From assembly GCA_030834695.1 (NCBI GenBank), contig JAUQXK010000035.1, positions 1 through 33,734 of the forward strand: a stretch of DNA of 33,734 bases. Reading direction: 5' to 3'. Positions within the stretch are counted from its first letter, which is position 1; each line of letters opens with the position of its first letter. Under the pieces are notes generated by a model. That model saw only the letters and a program-made list of their open reading frames with translations, made no database searches and had not been told where the DNA came from. Made by a program: the position numbers and the translations under genes. The stretch is from Desulfobacterales bacterium. GTDB lineage: Bacteria; Desulfobacterota; Desulfobacteria; Desulfobacterales; SpSt-501. Below are positions 1 through 19,575 of the stretch, piece after piece.

Positions 1-86
1 ATATGATCTTGGCTGGCAGGAACTCTGATAGGTTTTGTCGTGGAGATATATCCAGCAGAAGCAGATTTTATCTTATTTTGACAGCT

Positions 87-704
87 TCAGATTTTTAGCT
101 GCGTGAGTATAGTCCTTTCCAGCCTCTCGGCCTCGGCTTCCAGCTGGTCCACCTTGTGACCCAATTCGGACTTAAAGGCCTCGTCCTTGAGGCTACCGAG
201 ATTGATGCGGACATTGTAGACCGCTGTGCGCACCGCCATTCGCGCTGCGAGCACGCCGGCGGCGCCGTCGGAGGCGGCGTTGGGGTTGCCTTTCGAGATC
301 ACGGCACGGCCGAGGTCCATGATCGCGAGGGCGTCCCGGGCGACCCCCAGCGGCACCAGGGCCGCCTGCTTGAAGGCCTCTTGAACCGCCCGGCTGCGGT
401 CGGCTTTCTCCGCCTCGGTGGCCTTCGGCATCTGGAACGCTTTCAGCACCTGGGCATAAGCGTCCGAATCCCGGTCGATGTCTTGCAGGAGCTTCTGGCG
501 CAGGCTCGAGGCTTTCTCGGCCACCGCACGCATTTCGGCATCCACATCTTGAAAATTCTTGCGGCCGATGGTGAGGTTCGCCACCATCTCCGTCAATGCC
601 GCGGCCAATGCGGCATTCAAGGCGGCGGAACTGCCGCCACCGGGGACGGGATCGCCGGATGCGGTTTGGGCGAGATAGTCGACGATGCTCAGGTTTTTCA
701 GCAC
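87..704 (-). CDS. fchA: Formimidoyltetrahydrofolate cyclodeaminase
   Basis: This 205-residue protein matches the cyclodeaminase (FTCD_C) family. The enzyme converts 5-formimidoyl-THF to 5,10-methenyl-THF plus ammonia in the cytoplasm. The family signature is the N-terminal PGGGSSAALNAALAAAL stretch (about residues 21-37) followed by long helices typical of this all-alpha fold. The length fits a stand-alone bacterial enzyme rather than the bifunctional animal protein. The start is GTG at 704, with GGAG inside the end of hutI; only two bases separate it from the hutI stop, so the two are probably co-translated. Downstream of imidazolonepropionase it would process the formimino group released from formiminoglutamate. 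The partner glutamate formimidoyltransferase is not in the window and may lie past the left edge. Confidence 0.9.
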   Translation of the reverse strand: MLKNLSIVDYLAQTASGDPVPGGGSSAALNAALAAALTEMVANLTIGRKNFQDVDAEMRAVAEKASSLRQKLLQDIDRDSDAYAQVLKAFQMPKATEAEKADRSRAVQEAFKQAALVPLGVARDALAIMDLGRAVISKGNPNAASDGAAGVLAARMAVRTAVYNVRINLGSLKDEAFKSELGHKVDQLEAEAERLERTILTQLKI

Positions 705-706
705 GC

Positions 707-1987
707 CTATTCTCCTTGGTCGAGTTTGTTGAAGACGAGAGTTCCTCTCTTGATCACCTTCTCCACCGTGCTCACGCCGAGGTGGTATGGGATGAAGCGG
801 TAGGACGGGTTTTCGAGAATGACGACATCCCCCTGCTTGCCGGGATCGATGCTGCCGATCATCTGCGCCCGATCCAGGGCGGCCGCGCCGTTGATTGTGA
901 GCGCGGTCACGATTTCCTCCGGCGAGAGGTTCATGTAAAGCGCCGCCAGCGCCGCAACCAGCGGGACGGACTCCGAAAAGCAGCTGCCCGGGTTGAAATC
1001 GGTGGCCAGCGCCACCGCGCAGCCGGCATCGATCATAAAGCGTCCCCTAGCGTAAGGTTCGCGCAGGCTGAAGGCGGTGGCCGGAAGCAGGGTGGCCACC
1101 ACGCCGGCTGTTGCCATGGCGCGCAGACCCTCGTCGGAGGCGTTGAGCAGATGATCGGCCGACACCGCGCCGATCTCCGCGCCGAGCTCGGCACCCCCCA
1201 GCCGGACGATCTCGTCGGCATGCAGCTTCGGCTTCAAGCCGGATTGGGCGGCACCGGTCAACAGCCGCCGGGACTGCTCGACGGAGAACACATTTTTTTC
1301 GCAAAAGACATCGCAGAACTCGGCCAGCTGCCGGCCGGCAACCTCCGGCACCACCTCTTTCAGCAGGAAGTCGATGTAATCGTCTTCGCGGCCCTTGTAT
1401 TCGGGCGGAACCGCATGCGCGCCCATGAAGGTGGGGACGACATCCAGCGGATGCAGCCGATTGAGATCGGCCATGACCTCCAGTTGTTTGATCTCGGTTG
1501 CACGGTCCAGACCGTAGCCGCTCTTGCCCTCGACCGTGGTGACCCCGAAGGACAGCATGGAGTCGAGCCGCTTGAGTCCGGCATCCGTCAATTCTTGGAA
1601 CGAAGCGCTGCGGGTGGCGGCTACCGTGCTGAGAATGCCGCCGCCGCGCTGCAGGATGTCCATGTAGCTGTCACCCTTCAACCGCCAGGCGTATTCTTCG
1701 GCCCGATCGCCGCCGAAGACGAGGTGAGTGTGGGAATCGACGAAGCCCGGCAGCACGGCCTTGCCGGAGGCGTCGATGGTTTCGAATAGCGATAAGTCTC
1801 CGCCCGAAGCCTCCAAGTCCGTCATGACCTCCGCCGTGGGGCCGACGCGGGAAATCCGTCCCTGTTCTATGACGACGGCGCCGTCCGCGATGATGCCGAG
1901 GTTCGACATCGCCCGGCCCCTTTTCGCGGCAAAGGCGCTGCAGGTCACCAATTCGGAGGCGTTTTTGATAATCAGGTTCCCGCTCAT
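707..1987 (-). CDS. hutI: Imidazolonepropionase
   Basis: This 426-residue amidohydrolase hydrolyses 4-imidazolone-5-propionate to N-formimidoyl-L-glutamate, the third step of histidine degradation. The metal-binding HxH pair lies in DSHTHLVFGG (His86 and His88). Later metal and substrate motifs are KLHADE and ATDFNPGS, all in the order expected for HutI. I place the start at ATG 1987 (MSGNLIIKNASEL). An upstream in-frame ATG at 2035 would add residues encoded by a GATACGGG repeat block and is less likely. An AGGAT Shine-Dalgarno-like sequence precedes 1987. The upstream gene is a four-helix-bundle cassette that separates hutI from hutU, and its terminal repeat reaches almost to this ribosome site. 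Distal expression therefore probably depends on read-through from hutU. Confidence 0.95.
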   Translation of the reverse strand: MSGNLIIKNASELVTCSAFAAKRGRAMSNLGIIADGAVVIEQGRISRVGPTAEVMTDLEASGGDLSLFETIDASGKAVLPGFVDSHTHLVFGGDRAEEYAWRLKGDSYMDILQRGGGILSTVAATRSASFQELTDAGLKRLDSMLSFGVTTVEGKSGYGLDRATEIKQLEVMADLNRLHPLDVVPTFMGAHAVPPEYKGREDDYIDFLLKEVVPEVAGRQLAEFCDVFCEKNVFSVEQSRRLLTGAAQSGLKPKLHADEIVRLGGAELGAEIGAVSADHLLNASDEGLRAMATAGVVATLLPATAFSLREPYARGRFMIDAGCAVALATDFNPGSCFSESVPLVAALAALYMNLSPEEIVTALTINGAAALDRAQMIGSIDPGKQGDVVILENPSYRFIPYHLGVSTVEKVIKRGTLVFNKLDQGE

Positions 1988-1997
1988 GAGGTGATCC

Positions 1998-2512
1998 TGG
2001 ATACGGGATACGAGATACGGGATAACAGCCTTCATGCTCCCACGCCATCACTACTTTTTGCTTTGGTGACTCTCCTCGACCGATTTTCTAAAATTATGCA
2101 ATTTCTTTCCAAGGGTGTTTAACCTATCGCTCAAATTGCTGTAAAGGTCTTTACTGGATAGAGAGCCTGTTTCAAAAAGAGTTTCCAAATGGTCGAGCGT
2201 TTCATCATTCGACGCGATGGCATAACTGAGGAAACGAAGGAATTCCTGTTTGCACTCTCGGCGCCCGTAACCCTCGACTATGGTTGATTTAACCGACTTT
2301 ATCGATTTGCGTATCTGGCTTCCTTCCTCGAACATCTCGAATTTCGGTAATGCCTCGATGGTCATGCGGTGGCTATCAATTACAAGTTCTTTCGCAAGCT
2401 GCCATATTTCAAGCTTCTTGTAACTCATAGACACCTTCCCTCATCCAACCCCGTATCGAGTATCTCTTCTCTTCTTCTATCCCGTATCCCGCATCCAGTA
2501 TCTCTTCGCTAT
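1998..2512. mobile_element. Inverted-repeat-bounded four-helix-bundle cassette
   Basis: A block of about 0.5 kb between hutU and hutI contains one gene (2051-2428) flanked by related repeats in opposite orientation. The left end at 1999-2023 reads GGATACGGGATACGAG followed by ATACGGGAT. The right end at about 2490-2512, read on the minus strand, is GGATGCGGGATACGGG followed by AT. The two 16-mers match at 14 positions. A second, looser copy lies at 2452-2468 (CCCGTATCGAGTATCTC). The block fits between the hutU stop and the hutI ribosome site. No transposase is present, so any mobility would be non-autonomous. That it is an insertion is inferred from the symmetry and placement. Confidence 0.5.
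2051..2428 (-). CDS. Four helix bundle protein (23S rRNA intervening-sequence protein family)
   Basis: This 125-residue protein begins [16 protein letters not shown] and contains [24 protein letters not shown] and [17 protein letters not shown]-type segments. These are hallmarks of the S23/IVP four-helix-bundle family, related to the Avd protein of diversity-generating retroelements. Family members occur in 23S rRNA intervening sequences and scattered through genomes; their biochemical role is unsettled. ATG 2428 is preferred over GTG 2434 because AAGG lies five bases upstream of the ATG. The gene sits between hutU and hutI and has no obvious link to histidine metabolism. Its base composition is visibly more AT-rich than the neighbouring hut genes, which supports acquisition. 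Confidence 0.85.
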
Positions 2513-2521
2513 TTCTCCCTC

Positions 2522-4564
2522 TTACTTTTGCTTCACGAATGCCTTGGCCACCAATTCTGCCAGCAGGCCCTCATCGGCCAGATACGGCAGCGTGATGTGG
2601 TCCGAGCCGGCGCGCAGTTCGTTGTATTGGATGCAGGTTTCGATGGACGGCTCGTTGCGGGCCCAGGCGCGGCGGGCGACCCCGCCCATGACGTCCCAGG
2701 GGATGGCGCGGCGGATGATTTCGTCGACGCGCGCGCTGCCGTCCAGCACCAGCCCGAAGCCGCCGTTGACGGCCTTGCCGATGCCCACACCGCCGCCGTT
2801 GTGAAGCGCCACCAGACTCAGCCCGCGGGCGGCGTTGCCGGCAAAGCAGTGGGTGGCCATATCGGCCATGATGTTGCTCCCGTCATAGATGTTGGCGGTC
2901 TCCCGGAAGGGCGAGTCCGTGCCGCCGGTGTCGTGGTGGTCGCGGCCGAGCATGACCGGTCCGATCTCCCCGGCTCTGACCATTTCATTGAATTTAAGCG
3001 CGATCTTCATGCGGCCCAGGGCGTCCTGGTAAAGGATGCGCGCCCGGGTGCCGACCACCAGCCGGTTCTTCAAGGCATCTCGGATCCAGTTGTAGTTGTC
3101 GCGGTCCTGGAAGCGTCGATCGGGGTCGATGCACGCCATGGCGGCCTGGTCGGTCTTGGCAAGATCTTCATCTTTCCCGCTCAGGCAGACCCAGCGGAAG
3201 GGCCCGTAGCCGTAGTCGAAAAGGATCGGCCCCATGATGTCTTCGACATAGGACTGGAAGATGAAGCCGTCGAGCGGGCTCTCGCCGTTTTTGCAGATGT
3301 CCCTGACACCGGCGTCATAGACCGCCTTGAGAAAGCTGTTGCCGTAGTCGAAGAAGTAGGTCCCGCTTTCGGACAGCGTCTTGATGAGCTCGTAGTGATG
3401 CCGCAGGGTCGCATCCACCATTTCCTTGAATCCGGCATGGCCGCTGCGCAGCAGCTCCGTGCGCTGCTCGAAGCTGATCCCCTGGGGGCAGTAGCCGCCC
3501 TCGTAGACCGCGTGGCACGAGGTCTGGTCCGAGAGCAGATCGATCTTGACGTCATGGTGGACCGCATACTCCAGCAGGTCGACCACATTGCCGTGAAAGG
3601 CGATGGCTCGACTCTGGCGTTTGCGCCGGTATTCGGCCGCGGCGGCGAATGCCTCGGCCGGATTGTCCGTCACCTGGTCGATCCAGCCCTGGTCGAGGCG
3701 GGTTTTGATGCGCGAGTGGTCCACTTCGGCGATGATGCCGACCCCGTTGGCGATGACGACGGCCTTGCCCTGGGCGCCGCTCATGCCGCCCAGCCCCGAG
3801 GTCACGAACAGCCGCCCGGAGAGGTCCTGGTCCGCCGGGATGCCGAGTTTGGCGCGGCCGGCGTTCAGGATCGTGCTGTAGGTGCCGTGCACGATGCCCT
3901 GGGGTCCGATGTACATCCAGCCGCCGGCGGTCATCTGCCCGTAGTTGGCCACCCCCAGGGCCATGGCGCGGTGCCAGTTCTCCGGGTCGTCGAAGCAGCC
4001 CACCATCAGGGCGTTGGTGATGATGACCCGCGGGGCTTCGGGCGAGGAAGCAAAAAGACCCACGGGGTGGCCGGATGCCATGACCAAGGTCTGCTCGCGG
4101 GTCAGCACCTCGAGGTAGCGCTTGATCAGCCGGTACTGCATCCAGTTCTGGCAGACCTGGCCGGTTTCGCCGTAGGTCACGAGCTCATAGGGGTAGAGGC
4201 CCACCTCGAAGTCCAGGTTGTTGTCGATCATCACCTGGCAGGCCCGGCCCTCGATGCAGGCGCCGCGGTAATCGTCGACGGGCCGGCCATAGAGGCGGCC
4301 GGGCGGCCGGAAGCGGTAGCCGTAGATCCGCCCGCGCGTCAGGAGCTCCTCCAGGAACTCCGGCGCCAGCGTGCCGTGCCACTTCTCGGGGATGTAGCGC
4401 AGCGCATTCTTGAGCGCGAGATTGGTGTCCTTTCGGGACAGGTTGAAATGCCGCGCCGGCGCCCGGCGGATTCCATGAACGAACTCGGGCATGGGCGGCA
4501 GCTCGTCGAACAGCGCCCCGAGGTGGATTTGCATGGAGTTGGTGATGTCGGTGTTGGTGATCAC
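2522..4564 (-). CDS. hutU: Urocanate hydratase, long form
   Basis: This 680-residue urocanase hydrates urocanate to imidazolonepropionate with tightly bound NAD+. The NAD-binding signature GLGGMSGAQ is at about residues 257-265, followed by the Rossmann-type GKAVVIANGVGIIAEVD region. The conserved Cys-containing segment near DYGNSFLKAVYDAGV and the late HNGGGVGIGKAVNGG motif are also present. At 680 residues it is longer than the roughly 555-residue Pseudomonas-type enzyme and resembles the long form known from eukaryotes and some bacteria. The start is GTG 4564, with AAGGAAGG five bases upstream. It is the first gene of a minus-strand unit with hutI and the cyclodeaminase. A 21-bp dyad just upstream is a candidate operator or leader hairpin. 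Confidence 0.95.
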   Translation of the reverse strand: MITNTDITNSMQIHLGALFDELPPMPEFVHGIRRAPARHFNLSRKDTNLALKNALRYIPEKWHGTLAPEFLEELLTRGRIYGYRFRPPGRLYGRPVDDYRGACIEGRACQVMIDNNLDFEVGLYPYELVTYGETGQVCQNWMQYRLIKRYLEVLTREQTLVMASGHPVGLFASSPEAPRVIITNALMVGCFDDPENWHRAMALGVANYGQMTAGGWMYIGPQGIVHGTYSTILNAGRAKLGIPADQDLSGRLFVTSGLGGMSGAQGKAVVIANGVGIIAEVDHSRIKTRLDQGWIDQVTDNPAEAFAAAAEYRRKRQSRAIAFHGNVVDLLEYAVHHDVKIDLLSDQTSCHAVYEGGYCPQGISFEQRTELLRSGHAGFKEMVDATLRHHYELIKTLSESGTYFFDYGNSFLKAVYDAGVRDICKNGESPLDGFIFQSYVEDIMGPILFDYGYGPFRWVCLSGKDEDLAKTDQAAMACIDPDRRFQDRDNYNWIRDALKNRLVVGTRARILYQDALGRMKIALKFNEMVRAGEIGPVMLGRDHHDTGGTDSPFRETANIYDGSNIMADMATHCFAGNAARGLSLVALHNGGGVGIGKAVNGGFGLVLDGSARVDEIIRRAIPWDVMGGVARRAWARNEPSIETCIQYNELRAGSDHITLPYLADEGLLAELVAKAFVKQK

Positions 4565-4687: not shown

Positions 4688-5839
4688 CTATTGTTGCTTC
4701 CAGGATGGGACATATTCCCGGGCCTGGGCGAACATGGCGATCACCTTTTCCGCGGACACGTCCGGCTGGATGTTGTGGCAGGACGAGAACACATACCCGC
4801 CGCCGCGGCCCAGGGTTTCGATCAAGCCCTCGACCATTTTCCGGATGTCTGCCACGGTGCCGAACGGCATGGTTTTCTGGGAGTCGGTGCCGCCCCAAAA
4901 GACCAGCTTCCCGGCGTATTTCTTTTTGAGAACCACCGGGTCCATGCCGCGGGCGGTGACCTGGACGGGGTTGATGATGTCCACGCCGATCTCGACCAGA
5001 TCGTCCAGGATATCCACGATGGAGCCGCACGAGTGGAACATGAGCTTGGCCGGGGTGAGCTCGCGCACGCGGCGGAAGAACCGGGCGTGCCGGGGCTTGA
5101 TGTAGCGCCGATAGTGATCGTAGCTGACCTGGAGTCCGGTCTGGCTGCCGAGGTCGTCGCCGCAGCGAACTACATCCACCTCGGCGCCGAACCGCTCGAG
5201 CTCGCGCTCGGCGATGCGCAGAGTGATCTCGAGGACCGCATCGAAGAGCGCTTCAAGCACATCGGCCCCGAGGATGAAATCCGTGTACCAGCCCTCGAAC
5301 CCTCGAACGAACTGCGTCAGATGCACAAAAGGCGCAGGCAGCGTCAGCACGGCCGCCGCCTCCGTTTGAGACCGGATCCAGTCCAGCCGTTCCCGCATCC
5401 CGTTCAAAAGGCCGGGGTCTTCAGGGTCGGGCCAGGGGTAGCGGGCCACATCCACCACCGTGATAGGTCCGGCGAGCGGTGCCGAGCGCTGGTCGTAGTA
5501 GTAGCCGCCCTCCGGGTGAACGCGTTCGACCCCCCACATGTCGCGGTAGGCACGGGGACCGAGCTCGGCCGCCAGCCCACGGGTCGGTGATCCCAGGATG
5601 ATGGCGCGGGTGTCGATCCCGAGCTTCCGCAATACGGCCTCGTCCAGCACGGCCGCTCGGGTCATACGCTGCATGATCTCGGTTTGGGATTCGATGCCGA
5701 AATAGGCTTTCAGCCGCTCGTAGCCCTCCACGACGATGGAGCTGTCATGCGTGCCGCCGAGGTCCAATGGGACCCGGTCTGTCTCTTCGTGGCTGAGCGC
5801 TTTCAGGATCCGTTCTCGGCTTGTCAGATTTTCATGCAT
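4688..5839 (-). CDS. Uroporphyrinogen decarboxylase-family (URO-D) protein, methyltransferase-like
   Basis: This 383-residue protein has the URO-D TIM-barrel fold shared by HemE and by corrinoid-dependent methyltransferases such as MtaA/MtbA. It begins LTSRERILKALSHEETDRVPLDLGG, as is typical of the methyltransferase-like branch. A zinc-site pattern HxC...C is visible: His269 and Cys271 in FHSCGS and Cys354 in SSCHN. That pattern is known from the CoM methyltransferases and argues against haem synthesis. There is no corrinoid protein in the window. It is divergent from the regulator/URO-D fusion at 6034 and so probably belongs to the same island. Alternatively it could be transcribed with hutU (123-bp gap). 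The substrate cannot be read from the sequence. Confidence 0.85.
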   Translation of the reverse strand: MHENLTSRERILKALSHEETDRVPLDLGGTHDSSIVVEGYERLKAYFGIESQTEIMQRMTRAAVLDEAVLRKLGIDTRAIILGSPTRGLAAELGPRAYRDMWGVERVHPEGGYYYDQRSAPLAGPITVVDVARYPWPDPEDPGLLNGMRERLDWIRSQTEAAAVLTLPAPFVHLTQFVRGFEGWYTDFILGADVLEALFDAVLEITLRIAERELERFGAEVDVVRCGDDLGSQTGLQVSYDHYRRYIKPRHARFFRRVRELTPAKLMFHSCGSIVDILDDLVEIGVDIINPVQVTARGMDPVVLKKKYAGKLVFWGGTDSQKTMPFGTVADIRKMVEGLIETLGRGGGYVFSSCHNIQPDVSAEKVIAMFAQAREYVPSWKQQ

Positions 5840-6033
5840 TGACGCTCTGCCCCAAATCTGTTCGGACGGTTTGTTTAAATCTTGATTTATCTTTTTATCA
5901 GTAAGTTATCATCTGCTTCAAGCAAAAAATCATGCAGCGTCGCATGCCTTCAGCATGCCGATTGGAAGAGATTATGGCTTGACAGACTGGTAAGATGTAG
6001 GATATCTGACAACCATTACTTCGGGGGTTTTCG
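5840..6033. promoter_or_regulatory. Divergent control region with phased CATGC boxes
   Basis: These 194 bases separate the divergent URO-D gene and the fusion regulator. Three CATGC boxes occur at 5931, 5943 and 5954, spaced 12 and 11 bases apart, about one helical turn. The last two are within perfect GCATGC palindromes (5942-5947 and 5953-5958). FadR-type GntR regulators commonly bind short palindromes near their own promoter, so autoregulation here is a reasonable inference. Confidence 0.45.
5979..6007 (+). promoter_or_regulatory. Probable promoter of the regulator-transketolase-TRAP operon
   Basis: A perfect -35 box TTGACA is at 5979-5984. It is followed after 17 bases by ATATCT at 6002-6007, or after 18 by TATCTG, as a weak -10. 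It lies 25 bases downstream of the CATGC boxes and about 30 bases upstream of ATG 6034, which has a GGGGG Shine-Dalgarno-like run. Confidence 0.5.
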
Positions 6034-7851
6034 ATGGCCGTCAGACCGCTGAAACCCATCAAGAAAGAAAGCGTGCGGGTCCAGGTTTTCCGCCAGTTGC
6101 GCGATCAGGTGCTGCGCCGCACCTGGGCGCCTGGAACCAAAATTCCCTCCGAGCACGACCTCTCCCGGACCATGGGCGTCAGCCGGGTCTCCATCCGTGA
6201 AGGCATCCAGCACCTGGTCTCCCTCGGCATTCTCGAAACCCGCCACGGCGAAGGCACCTTCGTCCGCGAACTTAGCGGGGAGATCTACTTCAATTCCCTC
6301 ATTCCCCTGATGGCGCTGGACGAGACCGACATCTTCCATGTTCTGGAATATCGCCGGATCGTCGAGAAAGGTACCGCCGCGCTGGCCGCTGAGCGCGTCA
6401 CCGATCAAGACCTGGCAGAGATGGAGGCCGTCTACGACCGGATGGTCCGAGCCCAGGACGACGTGGCCGAATTCGCGCGGGCGGATCTTGAGTTCCATCT
6501 CGTCGTGGCCAAGGCCACCGGCAATTCCGTGCTGATCAAAGTCAACAACGTCCTGCGCAGCGTTCTGAGCGTTTCCATGGAGAACATCGTCAGCACACTC
6601 GGGATGCACGATGGGCTGCACTACCACCGCTTGCTGATCGAAGCGGTGAAGTCCCGCAACGCGCCGGAGGCCGAACGGCTCATGGAAGAGCACGTGGTCA
6701 GAACCATTGAGCGCCTCAGGCGCGAAGCCGGCACGGCCGCGCGCGGGACCCCGGCCGCCGGGGCCGCCTTGCCGCGCGCCGGCATCGAGGAGCGGCTGGC
6801 CCTGCACCGCGCCTTCTGGGCCCGCGAAAACCAACCCCGGCCGCTGGCTTCCTTCCGCGTAGGCGATTTTTTCTTCTCGCGCCATTTTCTGGCCGCCCGC
6901 GGGCTGCTCGAGCCGGACAAACCCATCACGCCGGAAATGCTCGATGTGGCCGCCTTCATTCCGGACTACGAGCGCATGTTCCAGGAGTCGGAGGCGATCG
7001 GACAGGACGGCTTCTGGACGGGAGAGCCCTTCACCGGCATCCCATGGATGGAGGCCATGCTGGGCTGCGCCGTCCGCGCGGGGCGCGAGAGCTTTACGTC
7101 CCGGCCCTGGCTGTCGTCACCGGCCGAGGCGCTCGAAAAAGTGGGTTTCGACCCGGAGAACCCCTGGCTGAAAAAATACCTCGAATTCACGACCGCCCTC
7201 GTGCAGCAGAGCCGCGGCCGATTCCCGGTGGGCATGCCCATCCTGCGCGGACCGACCGACATGATCGGCGCACTCCTGGGCCAGCGGGAAATGGTGCTCG
7301 ACCTCATGATGGAAGACCCGGCGGTCATGCGCCGGTTGATCGAGCGGGTCACCCGCGCGTTTCTGTCCGTTATAGGTGCCCAGCGCCGGCTGATCCCGGA
7401 TTTCCACGGCGGAAACGCCCTGGGTTTCTATCACGTCTGGGCGCCCGGTCCCTCCATCTGGTTTCAGGACGACCTTTCGGCCATTCTGTCCCCGAAGCTT
7501 TACCGTGAGTTCTTCCTCGATGCGGCGCGCATGATCCTTGGGGGCCATCCTTACACCGCTTTCCATCTGCACCCGGCTTCCTTCTTCATCATCGATGAGT
7601 TGCGCGGCCTGGAGGACCTTAAGGTCATCGAGGTGAATAAGGACATCGGCGGCCCGGGCGTCCAGGAGATGCTGCCGGTCTTGAGCAAAGTCATGCAGAC
7701 GCGGGGCCTGATCCTCTGGGGCGACCTCACCATCGAGGACCTGGAAGTAGTCAAGCGTAACCTTCCCTGCCGGGGTCTCTGCCTAAACGTGGTCGCACCG
7801 ACCCTCGCAGAGGCGCACGAACGCCGCAACTATATTCATAAATGGGAGTGA
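6034..7851 (+). CDS. GntR/FadR-type regulator fused to a URO-D domain
   Basis: This 605-residue protein joins two families in one uninterrupted frame. Residues about 10-75 are a GntR winged helix (IPSEHDLSRTMGVSRVSIRE, then GILETRHGEGTFVRE). Residues about 95-230 are an FCD ligand domain with the metal-type DLEFH motif and later histidines (LHYHR, MEEH). An Ala/Pro/Gly-rich linker follows. Residues about 250-605 are a URO-D barrel (DYERMFQESEAIGQDGFW; LRGPTDMIGALLGQREMVLD; FHLHPASFFIIDEL). In this barrel the zinc-site HxC is His511-x-His513, and Cys583 lies near the expected third position. Metal binding and catalysis may therefore differ, and it may act as a sensor. The next gene starts six bases after the stop, so it heads the transketolase/TRAP operon. 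Homologues of each half are common; this combination is unusual to me. Confidence 0.85.
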   Translation: MAVRPLKPIKKESVRVQVFRQLRDQVLRRTWAPGTKIPSEHDLSRTMGVSRVSIREGIQHLVSLGILETRHGEGTFVRELSGEIYFNSLIPLMALDETDIFHVLEYRRIVEKGTAALAAERVTDQDLAEMEAVYDRMVRAQDDVAEFARADLEFHLVVAKATGNSVLIKVNNVLRSVLSVSMENIVSTLGMHDGLHYHRLLIEAVKSRNAPEAERLMEEHVVRTIERLRREAGTAARGTPAAGAALPRAGIEERLALHRAFWARENQPRPLASFRVGDFFFSRHFLAARGLLEPDKPITPEMLDVAAFIPDYERMFQESEAIGQDGFWTGEPFTGIPWMEAMLGCAVRAGRESFTSRPWLSSPAEALEKVGFDPENPWLKKYLEFTTALVQQSRGRFPVGMPILRGPTDMIGALLGQREMVLDLMMEDPAVMRRLIERVTRAFLSVIGAQRRLIPDFHGGNALGFYHVWAPGPSIWFQDDLSAILSPKLYREFFLDAARMILGGHPYTAFHLHPASFFIIDELRGLEDLKVIEVNKDIGGPGVQEMLPVLSKVMQTRGLILWGDLTIEDLEVVKRNLPCRGLCLNVVAPTLAEAHERRNYIHKWE

Positions 7852-7857: not shown

Positions 7858-8700
7858 ATGACTGACACCGCAACCGTCAAGAAACTGGAACGCATGGCCC
7901 TGCAACTGCGCTTCGACCTGATCGAGATGATCGGGGTCGGCAAGGTCGGGCATTTGGGCGGGTCGAGCTCGATGGCCGAGATCGCGGCCTGCCTCTATTT
8001 TCACGCGATGCGCTACAACCCCCAAAACCCGAAGGACCCGGACCGTGACCGCTTCCTGCTCAGCAAGGGCCATTGTGTGCTCATCCAGTACGCGGCCTTG
8101 ACCGAGTTGGGTGTCATCCCGCGAGCGGAGTTGAAAAAGGTCAAGACCCTCGAAGGCTGCCTCCAGGGCCACCCGGACATGGACCGGACCCCCGGGATCG
8201 AAGCCGTCACCGGCTCCCTCGGCATGGGGCTTTCCATCGGTCTGGGCATGGCCCTGGGCTTTCGTCTGGATCGGCGGCCGAGCCGCGTCTACGTCGTCAT
8301 GGGCGACGGCGAACTCTCCGAGGGCCAGATCTGGGAAGCCGCCATGGCGGCAGCCGCTTTCAAGCTCGACAATCTGACCGCCTTTGTGGATTTAAACCGC
8401 GTGCAGGCCACCGGCCCCACCCGCGAGATTTTCGACATCCCGCAGATCGAGCGCAAGTGGGCGGCCTTCGGCTGGGAGGTGGTGAGCGTCAACGGCCACG
8501 ACGTGGGCCAAATCCTGCAAGCGCTGGCGAAGGCGAAGGAAACCAGGGGCCGGCCGACGGTGATTGTGGCCGAGACGGTCAAGGGCAAGGGGTTTTCGTT
8601 TGCGGAAAACAACGCCGTTTTCCACAACAGCTCGCTGACCGCCGAGCAGCACCGCCAGGCGCTCTGCGAGTTGGAAGCCCGGCGGGCGGAGCTGAAATGA
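7858..8700 (+). CDS. Transketolase, N-terminal (TPP-binding) subunit
   Basis: This 280-residue protein is the pyrophosphate-binding half of a split transketolase. It has HLGGSSSMAEI near the start, SKGHCVLIQYAAL, and the thiamine diphosphate motif GDGELSEGQIWEAAMAA with the terminal Asn in DLNRVQATGPT. Transketolases move two-carbon ketol units between sugars. Split enzymes with small subunits are frequent in catabolic gene clusters for unusual sugars and in many anaerobes. Its start lies six bases after the regulator stop. It is separated from its partner subunit by a 163-base gap that holds an inverted repeat. The donor substrate is not predictable from the sequence. Confidence 0.93.
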   Translation: MTDTATVKKLERMALQLRFDLIEMIGVGKVGHLGGSSSMAEIAACLYFHAMRYNPQNPKDPDRDRFLLSKGHCVLIQYAALTELGVIPRAELKKVKTLEGCLQGHPDMDRTPGIEAVTGSLGMGLSIGLGMALGFRLDRRPSRVYVVMGDGELSEGQIWEAAMAAAAFKLDNLTAFVDLNRVQATGPTREIFDIPQIERKWAAFGWEVVSVNGHDVGQILQALAKAKETRGRPTVIVAETVKGKGFSFAENNAVFHNSSLTAEQHRQALCELEARRAELK

Positions 8701-8705: not shown

Positions 8706-8801
8706 AGGGTTCGAGGGGCCCAGGGGCCGAGGGTTCAAGTGAAGCAAGATCCGTTGGTCCTTTTCACTTGACCCCTTGGCCCCTTGAATCCTTGTACCCT
8801 T
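8706..8801. repeat. Imperfect inverted repeat between the two transketolase genes
   Basis: The left arm (8706-8743) and right arm (8763-8800) are imperfect reverse complements. The inner ends TTCAAGTGAA and TTCACTTGA pair almost perfectly, and both arms carry GGGGCC-rich segments in matching order. The loop is about 19 bases. There is no U-run, so it is not a classical terminator. It resembles a MITE or REP-like unit inserted between two subunit genes that must be co-expressed. Confidence 0.7.
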
Positions 8802-8863
8802 ATCGGACAGAGCAAAACGAACTCATACAGATAAAACAGTCGTTATCATTGAGGAGACGCCGA

Positions 8864-9826
8864 ATGACCCCTCATCCGAACATGCGAGAAGCTTACGGCC
8901 TGGCCCTGCTGGAGCTGGGTCGGAAAAACAGGGACGTGGTGGCGCTCGAAGCCGACCTGGGCAAGTCCACCCGCTCCGTACTGTTTCAGGAGGTCTTTCC
9001 GGAGCGCTATTTCCAGATGGGCATCGCCGAGCAGAACATGGCCGCCACGGCGGCCGGCCTGGCGCTGGCTGGCAAGATCCCGTTCATCCACTCCTTTGCC
9101 GTCTTCGCAACCGGCCGGGCCTATGATCAGCTGCGCAACTCGATCTGCATCCCCGGACTCAAGGTCCGCATCTGCGGATCGAGCAGCGGCCTTTCGGATT
9201 TCGGCGACGGCAAAACCCACCAATCGGTGGAAGACATCACCCTCATGCGGGCCCTGCCCGGCATGACGGTCCTGGCGCCCATGGACGGGCTGGAAACGGC
9301 CAAGATGATGGAGCGCCTGATCGACTGGCCAGGGCCGGCCTACGTCCGCATCAACCGCTCCGACCTGCCGCTGCTCTACCCGGCCAGTGAGCCCTACCAC
9401 ATCGGCAAGATCACCTGCCTGCGAAAAGGCTCCGATGCAGTCCTGCTGGCCACGGGGGTCATGGTCGGCCGCTCGCTCGAAGCGGCCCAGATCCTTGCCG
9501 AGCGGGGCATCGCGGCAGGCGTTTACAACATCAGCACGGTCAAGCCGCTCGACGCGGAGGCGGTCATCCAGGCGGCGGCGGGCGTGCGCGCGATCGTGGT
9601 GGCCGAGGAGCACAATCGTATCGGCGGCCTGGGATCGGCCGTGCTGGAGGCCTTGCGGGCCACCCCCCACCCGCCGGTCGAGCTGGTGGGCATCGAAGAC
9701 TGCTTCGGTCTGAGCGCCGCCTGCTACGATGAAATTTTAAACCACTTCGGCCTGACGGCCCAGGCCGTCGCCGCGGCGGCCATGCGAACACTGGACGGAA
9801 GCTCAAGGCCCAAAGGCCACAGCTGA
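8864..9826 (+). CDS. Transketolase, C-terminal subunit
   Basis: This 320-residue protein is the pyrimidine-binding plus C-terminal half of the split transketolase. It shows EADLGKSTRS, the catalytic-glutamate motif MGIAEQNMAATAAGLA, HSFAVFATGRAYDQLR and GLSDFGDGKTHQSVED. The C-terminal domain has the NISTVKPLDAEAV and EEHNRIGGLGSAV motifs. ATG 8864 is chosen because GAGGAG is seven bases upstream; the frame is open further upstream but that part is encoded by repeat sequence. It should form a heterotetramer with the preceding subunit. The following dctQ begins 17 bases after its stop. Confidence 0.93.
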   Translation: MTPHPNMREAYGLALLELGRKNRDVVALEADLGKSTRSVLFQEVFPERYFQMGIAEQNMAATAAGLALAGKIPFIHSFAVFATGRAYDQLRNSICIPGLKVRICGSSSGLSDFGDGKTHQSVEDITLMRALPGMTVLAPMDGLETAKMMERLIDWPGPAYVRINRSDLPLLYPASEPYHIGKITCLRKGSDAVLLATGVMVGRSLEAAQILAERGIAAGVYNISTVKPLDAEAVIQAAAGVRAIVVAEEHNRIGGLGSAVLEALRATPHPPVELVGIEDCFGLSAACYDEILNHFGLTAQAVAAAAMRTLDGSSRPKGHS

Positions 9827-9843: not shown

Positions 9844-10362
9844 ATGTCGTCTGAAACCGTCGCAGCGGCTTCAAGAAGTGAGTGCATCAGCCAGGTCATA
9901 GACAAGACCCTGTCCTACGTGGTGGCGGCCCTGCTGGTGGCCATGTCGTTCACGGTCTTTGGAAACGTCGTCTGCCGCTACTTTTTGGACGCCTCGCTCG
10001 CCTGGTACGAGGAGGTGTCCCGTTTTCTGCTGATCTGGATCGTGTTTCTGGGGGCGGTCATCGCTTTCATCAAGGGCGACCACCTGGGGATCGACGTGCT
10101 GTTCATGGTCCTGCGGCCGAGATACCAGCGAATGGTCACCGTGCTAGCCGACGCCCTGGTCCTGGTGTGCCTGGCCATCATGTTCCAGGGCGGGTGGGAG
10201 ATGGCCATCGACTCCCTCGAGAGCGGCTGGGTGGCCTCCTCGGTGCCCATCCCGTACGGATGGGTTTACATGGTGGGACCGGTCAGCGCCGCACTCATGT
10301 TCGTCCAATGCCTCATCAAGACACACGCCGACATCCGGGCGCTGAAGGGAGTGCCGGCATGA
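9844..10362 (+). CDS. dctQ: TRAP transporter small permease, DctQ type
   Basis: This 172-residue membrane protein has four hydrophobic segments and the family pattern of residues ALLVAMSFTVFGNVVCRYF, then WYEEVSRFLLIWIVFLGAVI and DHLGIDVL. It forms the small subunit of a sodium-driven tripartite periplasmic transporter with DctM and DctP. AAGGAAG stands just before the start. Its stop overlaps the dctM start (ATGA), so the two are translationally coupled. Its location behind transketolase suggests that the imported compound feeds a pentose-phosphate-like step. Confidence 0.92.
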   Translation: MSSETVAAASRSECISQVIDKTLSYVVAALLVAMSFTVFGNVVCRYFLDASLAWYEEVSRFLLIWIVFLGAVIAFIKGDHLGIDVLFMVLRPRYQRMVTVLADALVLVCLAIMFQGGWEMAIDSLESGWVASSVPIPYGWVYMVGPVSAALMFVQCLIKTHADIRALKGVPA

Positions 10363-11648
10363 ACGTCCTCTCACTTTTTCTCATGTCGCTGTTCGGCTTC
10401 ATCCTGCTGACGGTGCCGATTGCCTTCGCGCTCTTCCTCACGGCGCTGGTCCTGGCGCTGGCCATGGGGGTCTGGTCGCCGGCCCTCATCATCCAGAACA
10501 TCTTCCGGGGGATCGACAGCTTTCCGCTCATGGCGATCCCGTTTTTCCTGCTGGCCGGGGAGATCATGAACACGGGGGGCATCTCGGAGCGGATCATCAT
10601 GGTGGCCAAGGCCATGTGCGGCCACGTGCGCGGGGGGCTGGGGTACGTGACCGTGGTGGCGAGCATGCTCATCTCGGGCGTCTCCGGCTCAGCCGTGGCC
10701 GACACGTCGGCGATCGGCTCGATCCTCTACCCGGTGATGAAGAAGGAAGGCTACGACCCTAAGAAAGCAGCGGCACTGTTTGCCGCCTCCACCACCAACG
10801 GCCCGATCATCCCCCCCTCCATCCCGATGGTCATCTTCGGGGTCATCGCCAACGTTTCGATCATCCGGTTGTTCATCGGCGGGGTCGTTCCGGGCCTGAT
10901 CCTCGGGGTGGGGCTGATGATCGGCTGGTACTTCCATGTCCGGGGCAAGGCCCGCTACCACGTCGAGGGCCAGTTCAGCCCGACGGCCGTTCTGAAATCC
11001 TGCATCGACGCGTTCTGGGCCCTTTTCCTGCCGGTCATCATCCTGGGCGGTATCCTGCTCGGCATCTGCACCGCGACCGAGGCCGCGGTCGTTTCCGCCG
11101 TCTACGCCTTCGTCGTCTCGGTGTTCATCTACCGCGAGCTCAAGATGAAGGACATGCTGCCGGTGCTGGTCAACACCGTGCGCGGGACGGCCGTGGTCCT
11201 GTTCGTCTGCGGTGCGGCCATGGCGGCGGCCTATTTCATCACCACGGCCCAGATCCCGGAGCTGCTGGCGGGAGTGCTCCTCCAGCTCTCCGGCGACAGC
11301 TGGGTGATGTTCATGTTCTGGGTCAACGTGCTGCTGCTGATCGTCGGCTGCGTCATGGACCTGACCCCGGCCCTGCTGATACTCGGGCCGATGCTGTTGC
11401 CCATCGCGACCAAGTACGGCCTCGACCCGATCTATTTCGGCGTGGTCATGATCGTCAACCTCTGCATCGGCCTCATTACGCCCCCGGTCGGGAACATCCT
11501 CTATGTGGCCTGCGGGATCTCCAAGATCTCCGTGGCCGAGATTTCGCGAGCGATCTGGCCCAACATCATCATCGGCATCATCGTCCTGTTCATCGTGACC
11601 TACCTGCCGTGGACGGTGATGTGGCTGCCGAACCTAATACCCAAATAG
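10359..11648 (+). CDS. dctM: TRAP transporter large permease, DctM type
   Basis: This 429-residue protein has about a dozen hydrophobic segments. Characteristic stretches are AIPFFLLAGEIMNTGGISER, SGVSGSAVADTSAIGSI, TTNGPIIPPSIPMVIFG, and NLCIGLITPPVGNILYVACG near the end. It is the transport-catalysing subunit in the inner membrane. The ATG at 10359 overlaps the dctQ stop by four bases. A longer open frame upstream is out of phase with real coding sequence and overlaps dctQ, so it is not used. A short GC hairpin lies between its stop and dctP. Confidence 0.94.
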   Translation: MNVLSLFLMSLFGFILLTVPIAFALFLTALVLALAMGVWSPALIIQNIFRGIDSFPLMAIPFFLLAGEIMNTGGISERIIMVAKAMCGHVRGGLGYVTVVASMLISGVSGSAVADTSAIGSILYPVMKKEGYDPKKAAALFAASTTNGPIIPPSIPMVIFGVIANVSIIRLFIGGVVPGLILGVGLMIGWYFHVRGKARYHVEGQFSPTAVLKSCIDAFWALFLPVIILGGILLGICTATEAAVVSAVYAFVVSVFIYRELKMKDMLPVLVNTVRGTAVVLFVCGAAMAAAYFITTAQIPELLAGVLLQLSGDSWVMFMFWVNVLLLIVGCVMDLTPALLILGPMLLPIATKYGLDPIYFGVVMIVNLCIGLITPPVGNILYVACGISKISVAEISRAIWPNIIIGIIVLFIVTYLPWTVMWLPNLIPK

Positions 11649-11700: not shown

Positions 11701-12699
11701 ATGAAACGGACATGGATTCTGGTTCTCACCCTGCTGCTGGCTATCGGCCTGGCGGCCGATCCGGCACTGGCCCAGCCCAAAGTTCTAAAGGTTTCCAACG
11801 GCGTCAACGAGCAGCACCCCTCGTACCTGGGGGGTAAGAAGTTCGGAGAAATCCTCGCCGCCAAGCTCCCCGGCAAGTACGACGTGCAGGTCTACGCCAA
11901 CGCCCAGCTGGGCGACGACGTGCGCGCCACGGAGGGCGTCCGCATGGGGACCCTTGAGATGGTCACCACCTCGGCCTCGCCCCTGACCGGCCTGGTTCCC
12001 GAGTTCAACGTGTTCGACCTGCCTTTCATCGTGACGAGCGAGAAGGCCGCCGACGCCATATACGACGGGTCGATCGGCGCCAAGCTGGGGGCCGCCCTGG
12101 AACCCAAAGGGATCAAGCTGCTGGCCTATTATGAAAACGGATTCCGGCAGCTGACCAACAGCGTGCGCGAGGTCAAGGCCCCGGCCGACATGAAGGGGCT
12201 CAAGATCCGCACCATGCAGAACCCCATTCATCTCGAGGCGTTCCGGGCCATGGGCGCCAACCCGACTCCCATGCCCTTCAGCGAGGTTTTCACCGCGCTG
12301 CAGCAGAAGACGATCGACGGACAGGAAAACCCCATCCCGACCATCTGGCTGTCCAAGTTCTACGAAGTCCAGAAGTTCGTCTCTCTGACCGGGCACGTCT
12401 ACGGCCCGCACATCGTGCTCATCAACAAGAAGCTCTTCGACTCTTTCCCGGCCGAAGACCAGAAGATCATCGCTGCCGCTGCTCAGGAATCGGCCATCTA
12501 CCAGCGGAACCTCAACCGCAAGATGAACAGCGATTTCGTGGCGGAGCTGAAGAAGGCCGGCAATACGGTCAGCGAGCTGACCCCCGAGCAGAAAAAAGCC
12601 TTCCAGGATGCCGTGGCGCCCGTGTACGCGACCTGGGAGCCTAAGATCGGCAAGGCGCTGATGGATGAATTCAAGGCGACGGTCGAAAAGGCCAAGTGA
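11701..12699 (+). CDS. dctP: TRAP transporter substrate-binding protein, DctP type
   Basis: This 332-residue periplasmic protein has a signal peptide (MKRTW, then a Leu-rich core, with cleavage after about ADPALAQ, residue 25). The DctP fold is shown by GDDVRATEGVRMGTLEM, FNVFDLPFIV, and the ligand region GLKIRTMQNPIHLEAFRAMG and FSEVFTALQQKTIDGQENP. Arg170 corresponds to the arginine that clamps the carboxylate in known DctP proteins, so an organic acid ligand is likely. The ANPTPMPFSEVFTALQQ pattern resembles binders of sugar acids, a weak inference. AAAGGAG precedes the start. It is encoded after the permeases, and the operon continues to an SDR after a hairpin repeat. Confidence 0.93.
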   Translation: MKRTWILVLTLLLAIGLAADPALAQPKVLKVSNGVNEQHPSYLGGKKFGEILAAKLPGKYDVQVYANAQLGDDVRATEGVRMGTLEMVTTSASPLTGLVPEFNVFDLPFIVTSEKAADAIYDGSIGAKLGAALEPKGIKLLAYYENGFRQLTNSVREVKAPADMKGLKIRTMQNPIHLEAFRAMGANPTPMPFSEVFTALQQKTIDGQENPIPTIWLSKFYEVQKFVSLTGHVYGPHIVLINKKLFDSFPAEDQKIIAAAAQESAIYQRNLNRKMNSDFVAELKKAGNTVSELTPEQKKAFQDAVAPVYATWEPKIGKALMDEFKATVEKAK

Positions 12700-12861: not shown

Positions 12862-13614
12862 ATGCGATTGAAAGGCAAGGTCGCTCTCATCACGGGGGGT
12901 GCGCAAGGCCTTGGAGCCGGCATCGCCCGGCGTTTCGGCCACGAGGGTGCGCAGGTCTTCCTGGGCGATCTGAAGGAGGCCGAGGGCAACGTCTTCGCGG
13001 CGCAACTCCAGGCCGAAGGGGTCAGCGCTCGGTTCGTGCGGCTGGATGTGGCCAGCGAGGAAAGTTGGGTCAAATCCTGCGAGAACGTGGTGGCAAATGC
13101 GGGGCGGCTCAATGTCCTCGTCAACAACGCCGGGATCAACATCCGCCAGCCCATCGAGGAAATGACGGTCGAAAATCTGGATCTGATGCTGGCGGTTAAT
13201 GTGCGCGGTCCGTTTCTCGGCATCAAGCACGCGCTGCCCTTGATGCGCAAAGCCGGCGGCGGCAGCATCATCAACATGGGCTCGGTCTGCTGCCTGATCG
13301 GCCACAAGTTCACACCGGAAGCCTACACCACCGTTAAGGGCGCCCTCATGCAGCTGACCAAGTCCGTGGCCGCTCGCTATGCAAAGGACAACATCCGTGC
13401 GAACATTCTCTGCCCCAGCACGGTCGAGACGCCTCTCGTCCAGGAAATGCTGAAAAATCCCGAACGCCGCAGCGAGCGCCTGGGCGAGGTGCCCCTGGGA
13501 CGGCTGGCGAGCATCGACGATGTCGCCAACGCGGCGCTTTATCTGGCTTCCGATGAAGCCGCCTTCATCAACGGGGTCGCTTTCCCGGTGGACGGCGGTG
13601 TGACCGCCTGGTAA
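12862..13614 (+). CDS. Short-chain dehydrogenase/reductase (FabG-like SDR)
   Basis: This 250-residue classical SDR begins MRLKGKVALITGGAQGLGAG. The TGGxxGxG cofactor loop is near residues 11-18, and GDL follows as the adenine-ribose acidic site, which favours NAD. NNAGIN and the catalytic YTTVK are present. The catalytic serine in GSVCCLIGHK lies 14 rather than 13 residues before the tyrosine, a one-residue insertion. The C-terminal GVAFPVDGG motif is standard. AGGAG stands seven bases before ATG. It follows dctP after a REP-like hairpin, so it may act on the imported substrate, for example by oxidising a hydroxyl to a ketose that transketolase can use. That role is inferred from neighbourhood only. 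Confidence 0.9.
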   Translation: MRLKGKVALITGGAQGLGAGIARRFGHEGAQVFLGDLKEAEGNVFAAQLQAEGVSARFVRLDVASEESWVKSCENVVANAGRLNVLVNNAGINIRQPIEEMTVENLDLMLAVNVRGPFLGIKHALPLMRKAGGGSIINMGSVCCLIGHKFTPEAYTTVKGALMQLTKSVAARYAKDNIRANILCPSTVETPLVQEMLKNPERRSERLGEVPLGRLASIDDVANAALYLASDEAAFINGVAFPVDGGVTAW

Positions 13615-14142: not shown

Positions 14143-14266
14143 TTGTTTTTTGAGTTTTAAGCTTCACCGGAAAGCAGGATTTTCCTTGAGCGGCGGCCTG
14201 CTTTACTTCCGCTTTCGGCCAGTCTAAGATTCCTCATCATATTTTCCATTGCGGAGATTCGATCGA

Positions 14267-15796
14267 ATGAAAACCATCGTCCTCGATATGGAGAACATGA
14301 CTCTCGATGGCCTCGTCGCGGCGGCGCGCGGGGGGGCGGTCGTGCGGCTGAGCGCCGAGGCGGAAGAGCGCATCCGGGCCGGCCGGGCGCTGGTGGACCA
14401 GTGGGTGGCCGAAGAGCGGCGGATTTATGGAGTGACGACCGGATTCGGGGCCCTGAGCGACGTGGCCATTTCGAAAAAAGACACCCGGCGCCTGCAGGAG
14501 AACATTCTCATGAGCCACGCGTCCGGCGTGGGTGAGCCGTTCGCCGCCGAAACCGTTCGAGCCGTCATGACGCTCAGGGTCAAGGACTTCGCCCGGGGCC
14601 ACTCCGGCATCCGGCTGGAGACCGCCCGGCAACTGCTTGAATTGCTCAACCGCGGCATCCTTCCGGTGGTTCCGGAAAAAGGATCGGTGGGGGCGAGCGG
14701 CGACCTTGCGCCGCTGGCCCATCTGGCCCTGGTTTTGTTGGGAAAAGGCGAGGCGGTTTACGATGGGGTCCGCATGAGCGGCGCCGACGCATTGACCGCG
14801 TGCGGACTCCAGCCGCACCAACTCGAATCGGCCGAGGGGCTGGCGCTCGTCAACGGCACCCAGGTCATGACGGCCATCGGCGGGCTGGCGGTCTACGATG
14901 CCGACCGGCTTTCCCGATTAACCGACATCGCGGCGTCCATGACGCTGGAGGTGCTGATGGGCAGCCGCACCGAGTTCAATCCGCGGATTCACCAGGTGCG
15001 GCCGCACCCCGGCCAGATCACCGCTGCCGCCAACATGGAGCGCATCACCCGCAACAGCGAGATCATCTCCTCCCACAAAGACTGCTCGCGCATCCAGGAT
15101 GCCTACACCCTGCGGTGTTCGCCGCAGGTGCACGGCGCGACCAAAGACGCCATCGCCTACTGCCGACGGGTGATCGAAACCGAGATGAACTCCTCGACCG
15201 GCAACCCGCTGATGTTCGCCGACTCCGGCGAGTTCCTGCTGGGCGGGAACTTTCACGGGCAACCGGTGGCGCTCGCCATGGACTTCTTGGGCATAGCCGT
15301 GGCAGAGCTGGCCAACATCTCCGAGCGGCGCATCGAACGGCTGGTCAATCCCAAGCTGAGCGGGCTGCCGGCGTTCCTCGTGAGCGACGGGGGCCTGAAC
15401 TCGGGCTTCATGATCGCCCAGTACACGGCGGCCGCCCTGGTCTCCGAGAACAAGGTGCTGGCCCACCCGGCCAGCGTCGACTCCATCCCCACCTCGGCCA
15501 ACAAGGAAGACCATGTTTCCATGGGCACCATCGCCGCGCGCAAGTGCCGGGAGATCGTGGCCAACACCGAGAACGTGATCGCCATCGAGCTGCTTTGCGC
15601 GGCCCAGGCGCTCGATCTCTTCACCAACATGAAGCCCGGCGAGGGGACGCTGGCGGCCTACCAGGTCATTCGCCGGTCCATCGCCCACCTCGACACCGAC
15701 CGTTTCCTGGCCGCCGACATCAACGCCATGCGGGAGCTCATGCGCAGCGGTGAAATCCTGCGTGCGGCAGAGGAAAGAGTCGGCGAGCTGGCCTGA
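14267..15796 (+). CDS. hutH: Histidine ammonia-lyase
   Basis: This 509-residue enzyme deaminates L-histidine to urocanate, the first hut step. The self-forming MIO cofactor triad Ala-Ser-Gly is at residues 143-145 in GSVGASGDLAPLAHLAL. Other conserved stretches are YGVTTGFGALSDV, SSTGNPLMF, GNFHGQPVALAMDFLG and EDHVSMGTIAARK. ATG 14267 (MKTIVLDMENM) gives the usual length; a TTG at 14249 would only add six residues. The other hut genes lie 9.7 kb away on the opposite strand, with an unrelated catabolic island between. The GNAT gene starts 19 bases downstream and may be co-transcribed. Confidence 0.97.
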   Translation: MKTIVLDMENMTLDGLVAAARGGAVVRLSAEAEERIRAGRALVDQWVAEERRIYGVTTGFGALSDVAISKKDTRRLQENILMSHASGVGEPFAAETVRAVMTLRVKDFARGHSGIRLETARQLLELLNRGILPVVPEKGSVGASGDLAPLAHLALVLLGKGEAVYDGVRMSGADALTACGLQPHQLESAEGLALVNGTQVMTAIGGLAVYDADRLSRLTDIAASMTLEVLMGSRTEFNPRIHQVRPHPGQITAAANMERITRNSEIISSHKDCSRIQDAYTLRCSPQVHGATKDAIAYCRRVIETEMNSSTGNPLMFADSGEFLLGGNFHGQPVALAMDFLGIAVAELANISERRIERLVNPKLSGLPAFLVSDGGLNSGFMIAQYTAAALVSENKVLAHPASVDSIPTSANKEDHVSMGTIAARKCREIVANTENVIAIELLCAAQALDLFTNMKPGEGTLAAYQVIRRSIAHLDTDRFLAADINAMRELMRSGEILRAAEERVGELA

Positions 15797-18045: not shown

Positions 18046-18079
18046 CGGGCCATCTCCTCGAAATTGACCGGCAGCCATT

Positions 18080-18130
18080 GTGGGAGCGGCTTCCAGCCGC
18101 GATCGCATCACGGCGAGATGCCGCCCCCAC
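18080..18130. repeat. REP-type hairpin, copy 2
   Basis: GTGGGAGCGGC (18080-18090) and GCCGCCCCCAC (18120-18130) pair at 10 of 11 positions. The unit GGGAGCGGCTTCCAGCCGCG is closely matched by the minus strand of the copy at 12727-12791. It lies between the permease and outer-membrane genes of the efflux operon. Confidence 0.75.
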
Positions 18131-18208
18131 CGAAGCACTTTGAAAGTCATCGGAAACTCCAGTTAAGGCAATAACGACCTAATTTGAGCAGCCCCATCGC
18201 CACGGGCG

Positions 18209-19575
<1,367 letters not shown>

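Follow-up and report, generated by a model that had tools for sequence, protein, structure and literature searches.

A single gene in a Desulfobacterales bacterium joins a complete GntR/FCD transcription regulator to a URO-D-type enzyme barrel, and the product is probably a trigger-enzyme-like protein, serving both as local autoregulator and as working enzyme for a hydroxy or sugar acid imported by a TRAP transporter. The window, the whole stretch of 33,734 nucleotides that was analysed, holds this fusion at the head of a conserved set of transporter and dehydrogenase genes, behind a palindrome that is conserved upstream of every intact copy. The features on which the argument draws are as follows.

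4688-5839, reverse strand: separate URO-D-type protein with the usual HSCG (HxC) motif, divergent to the fusion (Pfam URO-D E 8.1e-24, above cut-off)
5979-5984, forward strand: TTGACA, putative -35 element, identical in 6 of 6 fusion upstream regions
5996-6011, forward strand: putative operator TGTAGGATATCTGACA (palindrome TGTNNGATATCNNACA) over the putative -10 element, present upstream of six fusion genes
6034-7851, forward strand: fusion gene, GntR winged helix, FCD and URO-D-type barrel, 605 amino acids (open reading frame, Pfam, AlphaFold2, fold comparison)
6073-6273, forward strand: winged-helix DNA-binding domain, residues 14-80 (Pfam GntR; model helices 14-27, 40-47 and 51-63)
6316-6729, forward strand: FCD ligand-sensing domain, residues 95-232 (Pfam FCD; DhdR fold match)
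6730-6783, forward strand: flexible linker, residues 233-250 (pLDDT below 50 at 233-245; relaxed dN/dS)
6784-7848, forward strand: URO-D-type TIM barrel, residues 251-605 (AlphaFold2, VIA-align, Foldseek)
7564-7572, forward strand: HxH motif H511-L512-H513, at the place of the HxC of URO-D-type methyltransferases (sequence alignment; register from sequence)
7858-8700, forward strand: transketolase N-terminal half (Pfam E 9.4e-51)
8768-9826, forward strand: transketolase C-terminal half, start codon uncertain (Pfam Transket_pyr E 3.2e-40)
9844-10362, forward strand: TRAP transporter DctQ (Pfam E 5.9e-33)
10359-11648, forward strand: TRAP transporter DctM (named by comparison and position)
11701-12699, forward strand: TRAP solute-binding protein DctP (Pfam E 1.9e-99; NCBIfam dctP above cut-off)
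12862-13614, forward strand: short-chain dehydrogenase, SDR (Pfam adh_short_C2 E 7e-60)

The fusion is one open frame of 605 codons with an ATG start, and the order proposed for it by a sequence-only reading, a winged helix and an FCD domain ahead of the barrel, was borne out by Pfam and by fold, as was the linker between FCD and barrel. The N-terminal part belongs to the GntR family, FadR (FCD) subfamily, both domains clearing their curated Pfam cut-offs: GntR over residues 17-77 with 58.6 bits against 27 (E 4.9e-16), and FCD over residues 103-221 with 90.5 bits against 24.3 (E 1.4e-25). The FCD part of the model matches DhdR in complex with its inducer L-2-hydroxyglutarate (9vkn) with Z 21.1 and 2.2 Å over 138 residues. 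FCD domains use a metal site with D/H/H/H ligands to bind carboxylates. The counterparts here, D151, H155, H198 and H220, are the same in all 11 regulators aligned and are taken to be the candidate metal/carboxylate ligand set; with these residues in place, a second sensor is not needed. When the whole fusion was compared with PDB sequences by phmmer, the best stretches of all 29 matches fell within residues 1-237, and among the best 25 of 28 matching NCBIfam models none had its best stretch past residue 237; MocR-type models among the matches listed cover residues 11-83 only. The full-length AlphaFold2 model, built on a 20-row alignment, has a mean pLDDT of 84.8 and a pTM of 0.63, with low confidence at residues 1-11, 81-97 and 233-245.

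Membership of the barrel in the URO-D fold was established by predicted structure. In a domain check of the Pfam/InterPro kind, the GntR and FCD part of the proposed architecture stood above its cut-offs, while the URO-D part fell below: PF01208 reached 16.4 bits in the fusion, over residues 341-450 only, and 18.2 bits with the barrel alone, against a cut-off of 23.9. At E values up to 10, the same model matches 8 of 16 barrel family members (best 1.5e-6). Searched against PDB sequences, the barrel as a single sequence gave nothing significant by phmmer (best E 0.26), nor did a 16-row barrel profile. The AlphaFold2 model of the barrel alone, by contrast with these sub-threshold scores, is confident (pLDDT 92.7, pTM 0.91), and VIA-align placed it next to human UROD 1jpk (Z 22.3, 3.5 Å over 305 residues) and the M. 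mazei methyltransferase 4ay7 (Z 22.1, 3.2 Å over 297 residues), the next family below the URO-D types being the MetE-type methionine synthases at Z 15.5. Foldseek returned URO-D/MtaA-type proteins in all of rows 1-21, at E 4e-8 or better. Judged by this predicted fold, which settles the identity despite the sub-threshold Pfam score, residues 251-605 form a complete URO-D-fold barrel, as the earlier reading had described.

Intact fusions were counted in six genomes from two lineages, namely those of the window and of loci L015, L016, L017, L051 and L052. The gene has one copy in the window's genome. That the assembly consists of 149 contigs would leave room for two genes having been joined by a frame or assembly error; the other five genomes hold the same unbroken frame at 74-91% identity to the window's copy. 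The frame error near position 6750 that had been considered possible is thereby excluded, and an artefact of either kind is to be regarded as extremely improbable.

Scanning contigs with the barrel, by exact short patterns that reach close relatives only, returned six loci, of which L015, L016 and L017 are fused and L018-L020, from Lachnospiraceae, are unfused. Within the window's family, the fusion occurs in three of seven genomes, all of one genus (those of the window, L015 and L016), and in the window's class 2 of 241 sampled genomes match, both among these three. The class of genome G621, which carries L017, gave 4 matches in 155 genomes: three complete fusions and a fourth locus, L053 of genome G1146, that begins at a contig end, its N-terminal part lying beyond the contig. 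A phylum sample matched the barrel in 5 of 395 genomes, with none of four fused apart from the window's own, and the class of the Lachnospiraceae genome G622 matched in 15 of 391 (G622 included), with none of the 15 fused and frames of 326-468 amino acids. The phylum, window-class and G622-class searches are samples from larger groups, and where first-look candidates were many, at most five per genome (phylum, G622 class) or eight per genome (window's class) were scored. The expectation that the two halves usually occur separately agrees with this picture, the barrel being unfused in all 15 matching genomes of the G622 class and in all four others of the phylum sample.

In the window, the fusion is followed after 6 bases by the split transketolase and then by DctQ, DctM, DctP and SDR, and it appears to head a gene set for organic-acid import and breakdown. 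Loci L015 and L016 have the same order of fusion, transketolase, TRAP genes and SDR; in L017, L051 and L052, the TRAP genes come directly after the fusion, without transketolase. TRAP genes follow the fusion in six of six loci, and SDR is found in the four whose contigs extend that far (window, L015, L016 and L052). DctM-matching proteins are 81-99% identical beside the other fusions and 36-38% identical in the TRAP operons of L018, L019 and L057. For several DctP relatives, the ligands are presumably sugar acids, erythronate or pantoate for example; the entry names themselves carry no ligand information. A DUF1537-type kinase lies beside the fusion in L052, divergently oriented, and another beside the truncated L053, with none found by Pfam among the 20 window proteins scanned. 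These kinases score best against the 3-oxo-isoapionate kinase OiaK, with 385 and 467 bits, and since both lie under the cut-off of 700, the catabolic step is not assignable from the kinase.

The unfused relatives connect the same two halves. At L018 and L019, a barrel gene (41% identical) is followed 9 bases on by a GntR/FCD gene whose product is 41% and 39% identical, respectively, to the fused regulator; SDR and TRAP genes run in the same direction nearby. In two of the three Lachnospiraceae loci, the halves are adjacent separate genes, enzyme then regulator, in the company of TRAP and SDR genes; because this order is opposite to that of the fusion, the fusion is not the simple loss of a stop codon. 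The adjacency was counted in favour of a regulator working with its enzyme, as Rosetta-stone evidence suggestive of a functional link. The TRAP operons of L018 and L019 each contain an H-x-C type URO-D gene in addition to the H-x-H gene.

Nine stand-alone loci were compared with the operon gene set used. L018, L019 and L057 have DctP, DctM and SDR matches, with the order GntR, AraC, barrel, DctP, DctQ, DctM at L057; L055 has a DctP-like piece; and L020, L054, L056, L058 and L059 gave no match to that set. By Pfam, L054 encodes a TctC receptor, an HpcH/HpaI aldolase, a hydroxyacid dehydrogenase and a LarA-like protein, and L059 an NMT1-like receptor, a DctM-like protein and a mandelate-racemase-type enzyme. 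With other receptors at L054 and L059 and no operon matches at L020, L056 and L058, one common substrate for the family is not established.

Phylogenetic analysis of the regulators placed the fused ones in a single clade with support 98/99. The fused and five barrel-neighbour regulators group together at 89/88, a grouping made indecisive by long branches. Pairwise scores point the same way, the fused regulator scoring 124-177 bits against the five barrel-neighbour regulators and at most 103 against seven paralogues of its own genome, which represent 7 of 17 regulator matches.

Upstream of the fusion, the palindrome TGTNNGATATCNNACA begins 10 or 11 bases after TTGACA, with 22-29 bases between its end and the coding stretch used, and its position over the putative -10 element fits a repressor, as far as the sequence can tell. 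The candidate -10, chosen by eye, reads TATCTG in the window and TATCAG in the other five fusions. The palindrome departs from strict symmetry by one base in L051 (GTTATC) and in L052 (CGT). It was derived from the same six upstream regions in which it is conserved, and promoter DNA that is conserved for general reasons would retain it as well. In the 5.65-Mb genome, the only exact occurrence is at 5996-6011, which says little because a 12-base pattern is arithmetically expected about 0.3 times by chance in a genome of this size. A generic promoter scan of 5840-6060 returned no sigma-70 site by its rule, and a search of L018-L020 for a GATATC-type palindrome gave no match. Another palindrome, TTGTAATACAA, lies upstream of the barrel-GntR pair at L018 (9944-9954) and L019 (9873-9883), near a -10-like stretch, and could be an operator of its own.

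The metal motif distinguishes the barrel from the enzymes whose fold it shares. H-x-C is the zinc motif of MtaA/CmuA-type methyltransferases; the alignment A3, comprising 16 barrels (6 fusions and 10 stand-alone), shows H-x-H in 16 of 16 rows, with the truncated L053 and more distant relatives, 12 of them H-x-D, kept apart. The earlier observation of HxH in place of HxC is accordingly upheld for H511 and H513, and identity as a zinc methyltransferase, tried by motif, was rejected on the same 16 rows. Zinc enzymes of the URO-D type also carry a third ligand near the C-terminus, and none is evident in the H-x-H set, where residue 585 (positioned by eye) is N, H, Y, T, Q or G. A profile-profile alignment with HxC-type URO-D proteins (probability 96) opens a gap of two residues at the motif, setting H513 opposite the first His of HxC. 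A gapless register, in which H511 corresponds to the H and H513 to the C of HxC, is nevertheless likely, and is preferred because HxD, HxH and HxC proteins align by eye without gaps through the following helix.

Among the distant relatives, H-x-D stands at the motif place in L011-L013, L030, L036-L039, L041-L043 and L046, and H-x-H also in L040, L044 and L045; a similar helix motif mostly follows, and the motif of L047 is ambiguous. The HSCG (HxC) motif of the window's second URO-D protein recurs in the URO-D protein of L018. Read in this way, the sequences suggest three URO-D branches, H-x-C, H-x-D and H-x-H, with H-x-D as the sister of H-x-H. The truncated copy at L053 (positions 1-3771), outside A3, reads H-L-C, carries R405H and N535D and stands beside split DctM and DctP frames; from its sequence, this locus looks decayed or poorly sequenced.

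Selection has acted on both halves. Across all 15 pairs of the six fusions, dN/dS by NG86 was 0.03-0.14 for the winged helix, 0.03-0.20 for the FCD domain, 0.10-0.24 for the barrel and 0.31-1.25 for the 18-residue linker, ratios that are rough, several dS values lying near or above 1 and the linker being short. They point to purifying selection on every domain and to relaxation in the linker alone. Fourteen residues are invariant in the 10 stand-alone barrels, and all six fusions keep 13 of them: W338, E340, G344, W378, R405, G406, D409, G460, Q478, D480, H511, H513 and L577 in full-length numbering. The single exception, Y507, is His in three fusions. If identity in 9 of the 10 stand-alone barrels is enough, the fusions retain 27 of 32 positions. 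That 13 of the 14 family-invariant residues are retained makes a functional enzyme more likely than a pseudo-enzyme used for sensing.

Taken together, an autoregulating enzyme is the most probable reading, and it would operate as follows. The winged helix and FCD domain would form a one-component regulator, presumably dimeric like most FCD regulators; it would bind the palindrome at 5996-6011, overlying the promoter of its own gene, and keep the fusion gene and the downstream operon repressed. The carboxylate imported by the TRAP system, or its first oxidation product, would bind the FCD metal site, releasing the DNA. The barrel, tethered by the flexible linker, would be catalytically active in the same route of catabolism. 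Its substrate would most likely be a hydroxy- or keto-acid produced by SDR and its reaction a step such as decarboxylation, lyase cleavage or isomerisation, with an H-x-H site replacing the thiolate H-x-C site. Fusion would set regulator and enzyme at 1:1, and the operon would shut itself off as substrate is consumed. Coupling of sensing to catalysis, with the barrel as sensor or the protein responding to its own turnover, is offered as a hypothesis. Its most elaborate form seems doubtful: a dual-input flux switch in which the FCD domain reads the imported acid and an active barrel reads consumption, through occupancy or product, both acting on one operator, the barrel representing an H-x-H URO-D branch (sister H-x-D) with a cobalamin-free sugar-acid step.

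Other readings differ mainly in what the barrel does. It might be a retired enzyme serving as a second effector-binding domain, as in MocR or BzdR, and both the change of the metal motif from HxC to HxH and the BzdR precedent of an enzyme-like domain with lost activity, described in PMC3602430, lend this some weight. The same HxH is equally invariant in the 10 stand-alone A3 barrels, however, which are regulator-free, and the kept family-invariant residues, the low barrel dN/dS and the effector site already provided by the FCD domain also speak against retirement, which is judged unlikely. A corrinoid-dependent methyltransferase (demethylase) like MtaA, CmuA or CdmB would account for the close fold match to 4ay7, and the altered metal site does not exclude it, since zinc-free URO-D-type methyltransferases exist, CdmB being presented as one in PMC13222342. 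Against it stand the HxH of every A3 barrel, the neighbouring TRAP, SDR, transketolase and DUF1537-type kinase genes, and the result of a Pfam scan that found no B12/corrinoid-binding protein among the 20 window proteins or the scanned proteins of L052-L055, L057 and L059, although one encoded elsewhere is possible; this reading is quite improbable.

A passive fusion, in which the two activities share a chain and catalysis has no influence on DNA binding, is compatible with an autoregulating enzyme and comes close to an even chance of applying. It draws on the short, low-confidence linker under relaxed selection and on the drop in pTM from 0.91 for the barrel alone to 0.63 at full length, as is seen for domains without a fixed arrangement. 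Yet all six complete copies, in two lineages, are fused, a sign that the join may bring an advantage.

Proteins that fuse an enzyme to a regulator are a known kind, to which this one adds the joining of a complete FCD regulator to a URO-D-type barrel; no description of the GntR/FCD and URO-D combination was found in the literature searched, which consisted of open-licence papers. Trigger enzymes that act as repressors of their own operon, such as PutA, as well as BirA and NadR, likewise combine a DNA-binding domain and a metabolic enzyme in one chain. PutA-type trigger enzymes use a different DNA-binding domain, and in the fusion an FCD sensor is placed between DNA-binding part and enzyme, the latter being a URO-D-type barrel. 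By analogy, PutA may be regarded as the nearest working counterpart, being described in PMC8249747 as repressing its own gene putA and the transporter gene putP.

The MocR/PdxR/GabR proteins, like the fusion, attach a GntR winged helix to an enzyme fold. Theirs is an aminotransferase-like domain that acts as sensor, and MocR proteins are not known to carry an FCD domain, whereas the fusion has one, with a barrel whose conserved core is kept. The C-terminal domain of the fusion, a URO-D-type barrel instead of the aminotransferase fold that defines the MocR subfamily, places it outside that group. BzdR resembles the fusion in that a linker joins its DNA-binding domain to an enzyme fold, a shikimate-kinase-like effector domain whose evolution, according to PMC3602430, required the loss of enzymatic activity. 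The effector site of BzdR is that inactive enzyme-like domain, while the fusion has a separate sensor. DgoR, NanR and DhdR, of the FadR subfamily, share the winged helix and FCD domain but end after the FCD. HemE and the MtaA/CmuA/CdmB-type methyltransferases share the fold of the barrel, with Z about 22 over some 300 residues, but are only 10-13% identical to it, and the barrel is set apart by its HxH, its TRAP/SDR operon and its fusion to a regulator. Acid-sugar operons with a DUF1537 kinase, such as the aldolase-DUF1537 cluster for erythronate and threonate reported in PMC10580937, resemble L052 and the truncated L053 locus in having TRAP, SDR and DUF1537-type kinase genes, and differ from the window, whose scanned proteins lack the kinase.

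With the fusion, sensing can be tested against turnover in a single, small protein. A further gain is the link between organic-acid import operons and an H-x-H branch of URO-D, a very large superfamily; this link provides a handle on the reaction, as the effector of the regulator should equal the substrate of the enzyme or a near relative.

Several further genes surround the operon or resemble its regulator. The histidine-utilisation genes HutI (707-2035, reverse strand), HutU (2522-4564, reverse strand) and HutH (14249-15796, forward strand) flank it on both sides. All three are present at L016, and HutH follows at L015, where the contig leaves no room for the others; Hut matches are absent from the L017, L051, L052, L053, L018, L019 and L057 loci. 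This flanking may reflect chance within one genus or may be a substrate clue. Farther downstream, an efflux cluster on the reverse strand (16588-21740) encodes an outer-membrane factor (OEP), a MacB/FtsX permease, an ABC ATPase and an HlyD-type adaptor. Elsewhere in the same genome, on contig C134, an FCD regulator frame (L003, 1162-2238) has about 100 residues ahead of its GntR match and could be a second unusual fusion or a mere open upstream frame.
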